DNA from: Lineus longissimus
Taxonomy: Eukaryota; Nemertea; Pilidiophora; Heteronemertea; Lineidae
Direction: 5' to 3'
DNA: 64,000 nt
Assembly (NCBI RefSeq): GCF_910592395.1
Contig: NC_088321.1
Coordinates: 2,296,001 to 2,360,000 of the forward strand
The notes beneath the pieces are model-generated. The model was not told the origin of the DNA. It ran no database searches and saw only the letters and a program-made list of their open reading frames with translations. Made by a program: the position numbers and the translations under genes. Within the stretch, counting starts at the first letter, position 1. Every line of letters begins with the position of its first letter. Positions 14,601 to 51,800 of the stretch are shown here, piece by piece.

Positions 14601-17600
14601 TGGGTCGCATGTCTCACAGAAGATGAGCCTAAAATGACACCAGGACATAAGAGTCACGTCCACTACATAAAACGCCAGTGTTGGTACGGAGTTTTTGCGC
14701 TTACACCTGTTAATTTTCCCCTCGAAAACGCCGGTGCTAGAAAATGCCGGTGTTTTCTTGTCACGGCGATGGATTCAGGGCTAAATGGGGGCTAATTTAA
14801 GCACGGCGTTTTATACATAGTGTAATCACAAAAACGCCGGCGTTAGTAAGTTTCTACACTCGGCGACAGGCGGCGTGGTTACCACTGCGCATTTTGTGTC
14901 GGTCAATCGCGACTCCAACAATAACAAAAAATCGGAGAGTTCTACAGGAATTTCATATAGACCACGCCATCTGTCGCCGTGTTCAATAACTGCTTCCATG
15001 TAGTGGAAGTCCTCGCCGTGTCTTCTCCGGGCTTTTTCTGGTTCGGAGTATCCCCGGGGTTTAAAAACGCCGGGATTTTCCATGTAGTGGACGTACAACT
15101 ATTATAGAAGAAATCGATTTCACATTAGGCAGACAATAGTGAAATGAACAACCAGTCAGTCTCAACCTGTCAAGCTTGAAGCGACATGCGACTCATTTTG
15201 CTGTGGTGAGTCACAAATACTAAAATAGATCACAGATACACTGGCAAAATTTGGCAAGTAAAATTCATATAAATTTTATATAAAATTCGACTTCTCTAAA
15301 TTTGATATATAGAAAACTTTGCAGAGACTAACCTGTGTAGTATGTTATGTTCGTGAATGTGACGAATGGCTGCCACCATCTGTTGGAAGATTTCTAGTAT
15401 TTCTTTCTCGTCCAGTGGAGCGTCCCTATGAGAGAGGTATTGAGCTAGCGTCCTGGAAAAAGGAATTGAGGAAAATAAAAAATTGCAAGTTTTTACATGT
15501 GCAGAGGATTTCCTTCTCGTCCAGTGGAGCGTCCCTATGAGAGAGGTATTGAGCTAGCGTCCTGGAAAAAGGAATCGAGGAAAATAAAAAATTGCAACTT
15601 TTTACATGAGCATAGGATTTCCTTCTCGTCCAGTGGAGCGTCCCTATGAGAGAGGTATTGAGCTAGCGTCCTGGAAAAAGGAATCTAGGAAATTAAAAAA
15701 TTGCAACTTTTTACATGAGCATAGGATTTCCTTCTCGTCCAGTGGAGCGTCCCTATGAGAGAGGTATTGAGCTAGCGTCCTGGAAAAAGGAATCGAGGAA
15801 AATAAAAAATCACAAGTTTTTACATGTGCATAGGATTTTCTTCTCGTCCAGTGGAGCGTCCCTATGAGAGAGGTATTGAGCTAGCGTCCTGGAAAAAGGA
15901 ATCGAGGAAAATAAAAAATTGCAAGTTTTTACATGAGCATAGGATTTTCTTCTCGTCCAGTGGAGCGTCCCTATGAGAGGTATTGAGCTAGCGTCCTGGA
16001 AAAAGGAATCTAGGAAATTAAAAAATTGCAACTTTTTACATGAGCATAGGATTTCCTTCTCGTCCAGTGGAGCGTCCCTATGAGAGAGGTATTGAGCTAG
16101 CGTCCTGGAAAAAGGAATCTAGGAAATTAAAAAATTGCAACTTTTTACATGAGCATAGGATTTCCTTTTCGTCCAGTGGAGCGTCCCTATGAGAGAGGTA
16201 TTGAGATAGCGTCCTGGAAAAAGGAATCGAGGAAAATAAAAAATTGCAACTTTTTACATGAGCATAGGATTTCCTTCTCGTCCAGTGGAGCAGATTTTGT
16301 GCCATCAATTTTCACATTTTCCAGCAAGTGCAGTTACTTGTTTACAATAGGGTGCATTTTTTATTCAAATTTTCATTTTCACTTTGCCAATTTTTTATGT
16401 GATCAAATTCAGCATGACACATTTTCATTCAATGATTAAAAAGTTTGAAACGAACTTCAATCAGTTTGGTAAAATACATGAACCACTTCTTCATTTTGGC
16501 ACTGGCACCCTTCAACTTCAAGCACCGTTTCCAAAAATTCCTTTATTCTCTTCTCAAGCAAGTGGCACCTTGAAACTTTGTGCCTGCATCTCATTCAATT
16601 AATTGTTGCGATTAAAAATTCTTCTGGAAGTATTCCCCCAGTTAGGAGAAATTCAGAAAAACTTTAACCACAACAAATTCCTGGCACAAGCTGGAATTAA
16701 AGTGCATTTTGTCCAAACGAGAGTAAGGACTGCCCGCTATGAGAAGTTGTTTCCAACTCTCAAAGTCGGGCGTGCATGCACAGCTCTGTCAGTGCCCACC
16801 TATCTGCCTCTGATGCCATTTTGAGTTGCTGATTCTGAATGTAGCCCCTGAATGTTTTGTTAGAGACCAAGGTTAGAGACACCTAAGCCTAAGTAGTACT
16901 ATTGCACTTCAAATCAAAGTGTAAAGCTAATACTTTCACACCAAATTGTTTGTGTCAGATCTTCAGACTTGAATCAGCACTAATTCGACAGTTTGTCTAT
17001 ATCTATGTATTTGTTTACAGCAACTCTGAAAGGCGATAGCACCTTGGCACATATATCTGGTCATAATGTCATTAGAATTTGCCACACACTACAAGAGAAA
17101 ATTTTATTCTTCAATTGTTCAAACCAAAATAAGTGTTAGAATTTGCCACACACTACAAGAGAAAATTTTATGAGAGAGGTATTGAGCTAGCGTCCTGGAA
17201 AAAGGAATCGAGGAAAATAAAAAATTGCAACTTTTTACATGAGCATAGGATTTTCTTCTTGTCCAGTGGAGCGTCCCTATGAGAGAGGTATTGAGCCAGC
17301 GTCCTGGAAAAAGGAATCGAGGAAAATAAAAAATTGCAACTTTTTACATGAGCATAAGATTTCCTTCTCGTCCAGTGGAGCGTCCCTATGAGAGAGGTAT
17401 TGTGCTAGCGTCCTGGAATGAAATGGCCAGGGCCATTGTGCTCACCTCATGTGGAGGAAAGATGGATAAAGAGCATGGTATTGTGTCATGTAGTGTTAGG
17501 TTTGATGTAGGTCCAAGCAATTACAATTTCCCCAAAATGGCCATTTACAGTACATTCGTCCTCTGTGACCTTGAAAAGTAGGTCAAATCAAAGAAGACCC

Positions 17601-48800: not shown

Positions 48801-51800
48801 CAATAAGGCCCGGGTTTGATCCCCTTCTCAAGGAACTGTGTGGTCAACACTGCTTCCTACCCTGCAATAAGGCCCGGGTTTGATCCCCTTCTCAAGGAAC
48901 TGTGTGGTCAACACTGCTTACTACCCTGCAATAGATCCGGGTTTGATCCCCTTCTTAAGGAACTGTGTGGTCAACACTGCTTCGTACCCTGCTATAAGGC
49001 CCGGGTTTGATCCCCATCTCAAGAAACTGTGTGGTCAACACTGCTTCCTACCCTGCAATAAGGCCCGGGTTTGATCCCCTTCTCAAGGAACTGTGTGGTC
49101 AACACTGCTTCCTACCCTGCAATAAGGCCCGGGTTTGATCCCCATCTCAAGAAACTGTGTGGTCAACACTGCTTCCTACCCTGCAATAAGGCCCGGGTTT
49201 GATCCCCTTCTGAAGGAACTGTGTGGTCAACACTGCTTCCTACCCTGCTATAAGGCCCGGGTTTGATCCCCATCTCAAGAAACTGTGTGGTCAACACTGC
49301 TTCCTACCCTCCAATAAGGCCTGGGTTTGATCCCCTTCTCAAGGAACTGTGTGGTCAACACTGCTTCCTACTCTGCAATAAGGCCCGGGTTTGATCCCCT
49401 TCTCAAGGAACTTTGTGGTCAACACTGCTTCCTACCCTGCAATAAGGCCTGGGTTTGATCCCCTTCTCAAGGAACTGTGTGGTCAACACTGCTTCCTACC
49501 CCGCAATAAGGCCTGGGTTTGATCCCCTTCTCAAGGAACTGTGTGGTCAACACTGCTTCCTACCCCGCAATAAGGCCTGGGTTTGATCCCCTTCTCAAGG
49601 AACTGTGTGGTCAACACTGCTTCCTACCCCGCAATAAGGCCCGGGTTTGATCCCCTTCTCAAGGAACTGTGTGGTCAACACTGCTTCCTACCCCGCAATA
49701 AGGCCCGGGTTTGATCCCCTTCTCAAGGAACTGTGTGGTCAACACTGCTTCCTACCCTGCAATAAGGCCCGGGTTTGATCCCCTTCTCAAGGAACTGTGT
49801 GGTCAACACTGCTTCCTACCCTGCAATAAGGTCCGGGTTTGATCCCCTTCTCAAGGAACTGTGTGGTCAACACTGCTTCCTACCCTGCAATAAGGCCCGG
49901 GTTTGATCCCCTTCTCAAGGAACTGTGTTGTCAACACTGCTTCCTACTCTGCAATAAGGCCCGGGTTTGATCCCCTTCTCAAGGAACTTTGTGGTCAACA
50001 CTGCTTCCTACCCTGCAATAAGGCCCGGGTTTGATCCCCTTCTCAAGGAACTGTGTGGTCAACACTGCTTCCTACCCTGCAATAAGGCCCGGGTTTGATC
50101 CCCTTCTCAAGAAACTGTGTGGTCAACACTGCTTTCTACCCTGCAATAAGGCCCGGGTTTGATCCCCTTCTCAAGGAACTGTGTGGTCAACACTGCTTCC
50201 TACCCTGCAATAAGGCCCGGGTTTGATCCCCTTCTCAAGGAACGGTGTGGTCAACACTGCTTCCTACCCCGCAATAAGGCCCGGGTTTCATCCCCTTCTC
50301 AAGGAACTGTGACCGATGGGACTGGTCATGTGTGGCCGTGGTGGGGTAAAGGAAGGAAGAACTGCAAATATAGTGGTTTGAAATGTATGATAGCAGCTCT
50401 TGGCATAAGGTATAAATGGACTGGCATTGAGCGATTGGGGTCAAGCCCTGAGAAGGCCTTGAATTACGTAAGTTGGAATAAAGGAGAGAATGAGAAGAAC
50501 TAGATTGTGCTGCCATCTAACTTTATGCAGCACAACTACAATGCAAATAATTTAGAGGGATACTAGAAGATTCTCCAACAGAACTAACATTCCTGGCTCA
50601 GCACACTTTGGTCCTAAATTGGTTGTTTCCATTCAATTTGACCTCTAATCTGAAGAACTCTCTATTAAGGACACTAGCTTTGGTCCCAAATTGGTTGTTT
50701 CCATTCCATTTGACCTCTCTAATCTGAAGAACTCTCTATTAAGGACACTAGCTTTGGTCCCAAATTGGTTGTTTCCATTCAATTTGACCTCTCTAATCAG
50801 GACACCTCTCTATCAAGGACACTAGCTTTGGTGCCAAATTGGGAGTTTCCATTCAATTTGACCTCTCTAATCTTGACACTTCTCTACTTGTCAGTCCTGA
50901 GGGTGTCCTTAATAGAGAGGTTCTACTTTGGATTGTCTAAACTTCACTTGATCTTGCGCTTCGATAAATCTGTCTGAATTCTGTTCAGTCTTACTTTCTA
51001 CCACAATTTCTCATGAATTGAAAGCCTGTTCAATCTTACTTTCTACCACAATTACTCATGAATTGAAAGCCTGTTCAATCTTACTTTCTACCACAATTTG
51101 TCATAATATTACTTTCTACCACAATTTCTCATGAATTGAAAGCCTGTTCAATCTTACTTTCTACCCCAATTGCTCATGAATTGAAAGCCTGTTCAATCTT
51201 ACTTTTTTCCACAATTACTCATGAATTGAAAGCCTGTTCAATCTTACTTTCTACCACAATTTGTCATGAATTGAAAGCCTGTTCAGTCTTACTTTCTATC
51301 ACAATTTCTAATGAATTGAAAGCCTGTTCAGTCTTACTTTCTTTCACAATTTCTCATGAATTGAAAGCCTGTTCAATCTTACTTTCTACAGCAATTGGGC
51401 AGCCAAATCACCAAAATCATGCGACCCGCCGATAAAAAAGAAATCCTCTTCTACAACGATAAGAGCTTTGACTTCACAGTTGACGAGGGTAAGGACACTC
51501 TAATTGCTCAGTGGTTCTCATTTGCATAGGAAAGCTTTGGGTTTTCAAAGTACTATGAGTCTGATATCAAGTACAGTTTGTTTGCTTGTTTTTTCCAACT
51601 ACAGTAGAGGTTGTCATCTAGTTTCGTTTCTCAACCACCAAAGCTATGAGCTTGAAACTTGGTACATATAACCCCCTATATCATATAACCTCTGGTGCTG
51701 AATTTCAGCCTGATCTGATTCTTGACTTTGCCACCAGGGGGCCAAAACAGAAAAAGTAAGAAGTGCAATAGCCTGCTTATTAGCAAATTGTTTTTGATGA

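Follow-up and report, generated by a model that had tools for sequence, protein, structure and literature searches.

Tandem repeats that cross an exon-intron boundary were named mirages in amphioxus, where two reports (PMC3087553, PMC3902484) describe them in Adh3, in the globin genes BflGb6 and BflGb9, in PGBD5 and in troponin C, with intron gain as a possible consequence. In the amphioxus work, Adh3 data and reverse-transcription polymerase chain reaction (RT-PCR) of the globins suggest normal splicing, and somatic instability is reported for the Adh3 mirage. A related proposal, the model of Rogers as cited in PMC3087553, has introns gained by tandem duplication of AG/GT sites. We describe here arrays of the mirage type in the ribbon worm Lineus longissimus (Nemertea). 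They lie in a 64-kb stretch, C14:2296001-2360000 (hereafter the window), that holds two neighbouring genes, one for a Nek8-like kinase (minus strand; eleven exons in the window, K1-K11) and the other GTF2E2 (plus strand; seven coding exons, E1-E7). The arrays are mirage minisatellites in a distant phylum, accompanied by evidence from paralogues. An earlier note on this DNA had pointed to the amphioxus precedent, and rightly so according to PMC3087553 and PMC3902484; in searches of the open-licence literature the pattern was found for amphioxus only, with no report from Nemertea. Amphioxus was rejected as the source of this DNA: for GTF2E2 and for a long kinase query the top protein matches belong to L. 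longissimus, and for a short kinase query one such protein ranks ninth.

The two cases differ in more than the host, a nemertean here and a cephalochordate there. Five clear junctions occur in two adjacent genes, variation is seen between paralogues of one chromosome, and array-free paralogues make the joints visible. Splicing, judged in amphioxus from Adh3 data and RT-PCR, is judged here from annotated proteins. As in the Rogers model, splice sites adjoining exons are duplicated, but the outcome is the enlargement of existing introns, and in two introns compared by eye the segments repeated at the two ends are not the same (200 bp versus 109 bp between K7 and K8, 110 bp versus 188 bp between E3 and E4). 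Unit length and copy-number change are those of ordinary intronic minisatellites, from which the arrays depart in having one end in coding sequence. Junction-spanning minisatellites are thus placed in a protostome, far from amphioxus. Moreover, up to 13 similar paralogues provide a natural series of array states, array-free ones included, that makes the origin of arrays, their growth, the possible rewriting of exons and the choice among dozens of near-identical donors directly testable.

Splice junctions within tandem arrays

Exon edges were set by the annotated L. longissimus proteins P0241 (kinase) and P0001 (GTF2E2), near-identical cluster representatives rather than letter-for-letter copies of the window; reading by eye supplied the K1 donor, both edges of K2 and the acceptor of K3. 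This gave 18 mapped exons with 33 internal edges, free of stop codons apart from the terminal one of E7. Neither the window nor L001 yielded any exon of P0241 past K11.

An edge was scored as duplicated if a 30-mer of 15 exonic and 15 intronic bases recurred within 3 kb at 24 or more of 30 positions. Five of the 33 edges passed, each with 29-30 of 30 matches: the donors of K2, K7 and E3 and the acceptors of K8 and E4. At these five the unit comprises exon and intron across one splice site, which is what defines a mirage; E5 shows this weakly and E1 by one base. The earlier note had listed eight duplicated edges, with copy numbers from 2 to about 34. Its copy numbers and unit lengths hold, and five of its edges are clear, but the remaining three are not of the same kind. 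E5 is decayed: its best recurrence, 22/30 (26/30 with 10 exonic bases), lies below threshold, and AG is gone from all eight copies not borne by the exon. E1 contributes a single exon base. In K1, a 72-nt exon piece (34505-34434, minus strand) was copied to intron 1 at 34195-34124, but the piece stops 19 nt before the donor, so that the junction is excluded.

The splice sites in the clear donor arrays are well kept. GT is retained in 33/33 further copies of the K2 unit and in 15/15 of E3, leaving decoy donors intact, and the splice dinucleotide of the K7 unit, where the donor reads GTAAGT, is retained in 2/2. The K8 unit has more copies within the same intron (17169-17418, 18691-18747 and 22135-22383), for a total of 11 within 3.3 kb, the exon-borne copy included, and others out to 7 kb. 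Exon K3 carries no junction array; the nearest, at 29556-29844, is 43 bp away. Each exon edge is present once in P0241 and P0001, joined without repeats, and array repeats are absent from all six annotated kinase proteins read.

The earlier note had called the units unrelated. This is partly right, but the unit of K7 (just after the donor), the unit of E4 (which begins within it) and the sequence separating the two K1 copies all hold the same dispersed element, one resembling a miniature inverted-repeat transposable element (MITE), with similar inverted ends and internal tandem repeats of 17-18 bp. It may be pogo-like.

The exon-derived part of the unit is less variable in K2 (ratio 0.25) and K8 (ratio 0.60). 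Such conservation is absent in E3, both alone (ratio 0.87) and with paralogues pooled (0.044 versus 0.022, P 0.87), and the figures for K7 and E4 are based on three units each. Conservation of the edge as a general rule was therefore rejected: it holds for K2 and K8 and fails for E3.

Two minus-strand open frames made up of 28-codon units lie in the K2 region, 33169-32330 (279 codons), which extends from exon K2 into the K2 array, and 31186-30305 (293 codons). The largest array in the window, 49 copies of a 64-bp unit at 47198-50311, sits in GTF2E2 intron 4, away from exon edges.

Table 1. Exons and edge arrays of the two genes, in window positions (TRF, Tandem Repeats Finder)
Feature	Position	Strand	Remarks
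K2 donor array	30197-33087	-	84-bp unit, about 34 copies, reaches 41 nt into K2
K7 donor array	23162-23665	-	200-bp unit, 2.5 copies, reaches 45 nt into K7
K8 acceptor array	15395-16291	-	109-bp unit, 8 copies, reaches 58 nt into K8
E1 donor array	40034-40359	+	164-bp unit, 2 copies, starts at last exon base
E3 donor array	42901-44804	+	TRF rows 42901-43404 and 43558-44804; 110/107-bp unit; 16 nt into exon
E4 acceptor array	45958-46525	+	188-bp unit, 3 copies including exon-borne, 16 nt into exon
E5 acceptor array	50981-51396	+	45-bp unit, 9 copies including exon-borne, 5 nt into exon
Kinase intron 7 (K7-K8)	15452-23621		array at each end
K1	34415-35288	-	coding from ATG
K2	33047-33147	-	donor at 33047 spanned by array
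K3	29334-29513	-	without junction array
K4	27842-27906	-	
K5	27432-27535	-	
K6	24800-24915	-	
K7	23621-23724	-	
K8	15333-15452	-	
K9	13275-13416	-	
K10	12382-12510	-	
K11	11611-11736	-	
E1	39893-40034	+	from ATG
E2	41365-41444	+	
E3	42809-42916	+	
E4	46510-46695	+	
E5	51392-51488	+	
E6	52847-52962	+	
E7	53355-53465	+	including stop

Array states among paralogues

Both genes have been amplified on a very large scale within a single chromosome. C14 carries at least 13 copies of GTF2E2 and at least 12 of the kinase between 2.3 and 8.4 Mb; all copies of a given gene share one orientation, and those of GTF2E2 are spaced 405-775 kb apart. The distance from E1 to E2 ranges from 1324 to 2320 bp and that from E3 to E4 from 1896 to 12664 bp (13 copies in both cases), while K1 and K3 are 2577-5191 bp apart in 12 kinase copies. 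Sequence was read in five of the 12 other GTF2E2 copies for E3-E4 and in three for E1-E2; where distances are longer in the unread copies, other insertions may be present. The C-terminal part of the kinase was also matched outside C14, at C9:10472249-10472551.

In the copies read, array lengths differ between paralogues of the same chromosome. With the exon-borne copy counted, the E1 array has 2 copies in the window and 1, 3 and 4 in paralogues; the E3 array has 16 in the window and 10, 4, 7, 9 and 13 elsewhere; and the E4 array has 3 in the window and in three paralogues but 1 in two, so that two of five are array-free. Three junctions thus show from two to six copy-number states, and two of them have array-free copies. 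Set against its two array-free paralogues, the E4 joint connects an AATC of the exon, 16 nt inside it, with an AATC internal to the transposon, a 4-bp microhomology. The E1 joint, compared by eye with the array-free paralogue, has none.

One exon may have been altered by its array. The GTF2E2 copy at 2.74 Mb (C14 2743800-2746740) has, at the edge of exon 3, linked variants on both sides of the junction; this haplotype is found in array copies at 8.40 Mb, and it encodes Leu where the other five copies have Ser. To judge from this haplotype, the observation fits a rewriting of the exon edge by exchange between array and exon. Counting against exchange, another Ser to Leu change in this exon falls outside the part shared with the array, so plain mutation also occurs there.

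Origin and persistence of the arrays

Junctions could be conspicuous in this window either because duplications begin there or because of what becomes of duplications that reach them. Within the window, 41% of intronic 30-mers are duplicated, as against 16% of those straddling an edge and 6% of exonic ones. Of the 18 arrays that touch gene bodies, seven have an end within an exon, at points from 1 to 58 nt inside it. When the arrays were placed at random (2000 runs), a mean of 1.59 exons were partly covered versus the seven seen (P printed as 0.000), and 1006 circular shifts gave 2.31 (P 0.001). Edge coverage itself is not raised, since 7/33 edges are covered where 9.0 (placement) or 11.5 (shifts) would be expected, and none of the 18 exons is wholly covered where four to five would be. 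These P values, and those for seed duplications below, are optimistic, because the window was chosen for its striking pattern.

These figures suit a tandem-duplication hotspot of local extent, in which copies that span a junction would persist because the nearest splice site is the one used, with no need for an initiator specific to junctions. We consider this explanation probable, though not strongly so. According to it, short duplications would originate through end joining or template switching where microhomology is slight or lacking, one end sometimes falling within a transposon, as the joints at E4 and E1 suggest. Arrays would later gain and lose copies, probably through unequal exchange, in keeping with the copy-number differences between paralogues. 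Selection would remove duplications that cover a whole exon, hence perhaps the absence of such arrays, while those crossing one splice site would be tolerated, as the annotated proteins suggest, because splicing would keep to the site closest to the exon's unique part. The two together would make exon edges show up as the ends of arrays. The surroundings stand out in this respect: tandem arrays with periods of at least 20 make up 28% of the window and, of L001 and L002, 26% and 22%, compared with 4% of a C1 block of 200 kb and from 0 to 17% in 8-kb bins downstream of the window on C14.

Several observations weigh against this explanation. If each array family is taken to have grown from one seed duplication (the TRF arrays at 17169, 22135 and 43558 being merged into the K8 and E3 families), seven of 15 seeds span an edge versus 1.5 expected (P 0.0009; with the five strong cases alone, P 0.019). 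Placement filtered for exon damage covers only 1.08 edges on average and never reached seven in 2000 runs. The exonic share of the units averages 0.23, less than a uniform distribution would give (P 0.0098) and not what a plain neutral model leads one to expect. Three other annotated kinase models are interrupted at the K7-K8 intron: P0244 stops right after the edge of K7, and P0129 and P0130 start just before that of K8, so clean splicing is not assured there. Finally, the C1 block offers a weak control for individual edges. Its exons were predicted de novo by a procedure trained partly on the window's own exons, 10/18 of which it recovered exactly; on C1 it found 21 exons at a score of at least 13 versus 2 on reversed sequence. 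Duplicated predicted edges numbered 2/42 on C1, both in exons that are themselves repeats, versus 2/38 on the C14 stretch, where the low figure is due to K2, K8 and E3 being missed, so that the comparison fails as a control.

The excess of edge-spanning seeds is what would be expected if duplications started preferentially at splice junctions, for instance at R-loops, at paused forks or by way of short consensus homology where exons end, and the E1 array does begin one base inside its exon. The earlier note had proposed such a start. What stands of its proposal is one kind of process acting at several different junctions; a start at the junction itself we regard as unlikely, for array ends are scattered over 1-58 nt of exon, the E4 joint lies within the exon and in a transposon, junctions are duplicated no more than introns, and the window was selected for its pattern. 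A mild excess of duplications at junctions is possible. Similarly doubtful is a broader proposition, that tandem duplication favours exon edges in this nemertean and, independently, in amphioxus, and that the arrays keep feeding new sequence to the adjoining exon ends through exchange with the unit that the exon carries. Somewhat less doubtful, but still no better than tentative, is relaxed constraint: with 13 copies of GTF2E2 and 12 of the kinase, single copies might be dispensable and damaging junction arrays might persist. Beyond the copy counts, the GTF2E2 copy at 8.40 Mb (C14 8400130-8402800) has an in-frame stop in exon 3 and looks like a pseudogene from its sequence, and in two kinase copies the first-exon match is split, with stops in one of these matches. 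The window copies, however, are open throughout their mapped exons, and E3 arrays are present in 6/6 copies read, five of which have an open exon 3.

The other explanations considered are much less probable. The arrays might be decayed remnants of whole-exon tandem duplication, and an in-frame stretch at 44764-44832, where the E3 array ends away from its exon, does resemble the middle of exon 3 (tblastn E 0.32), with a DNA score matched by 0/1000 shuffles. That score, 28, barely tops the best of 272 other segments of the window (27), and at the other six junction arrays the flank distal to the exon scores no better than shuffled sequence; a whole-duplication origin is borderline for exon 3 and improbable for the arrays at large. 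Improbable to a greater degree still is an assembly artefact. Tandem repeats are difficult to assemble and the 13 copies are highly alike, but the genome assembly was made by Hifiasm out of PacBio HiFi reads, according to PMC8593623, junction arrays are at most 3 kb as called by TRF, and copies vary in sequence and number. We give equally little credence to a functional role for the arrays, as a store of alternative splice sites or of repeated peptides. The 84-bp K2 unit with its long open frames and the lower variability of exon-derived parts in K2 and K8 might be taken to favour it, but it is at odds with the lack of repeats in the kinase proteins and of such conservation in E3.

Dispersed element and downstream sequence

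After merging, the MITE-like element was counted at 15 places in the window, one of which contains an E4 breakpoint. There are 4 such places in L001, 2 in the 200 kb of C1 and none in the 60 kb downstream of the window. Open frames downstream of the window are, as judged by eye, mostly repeated or transposon-like.

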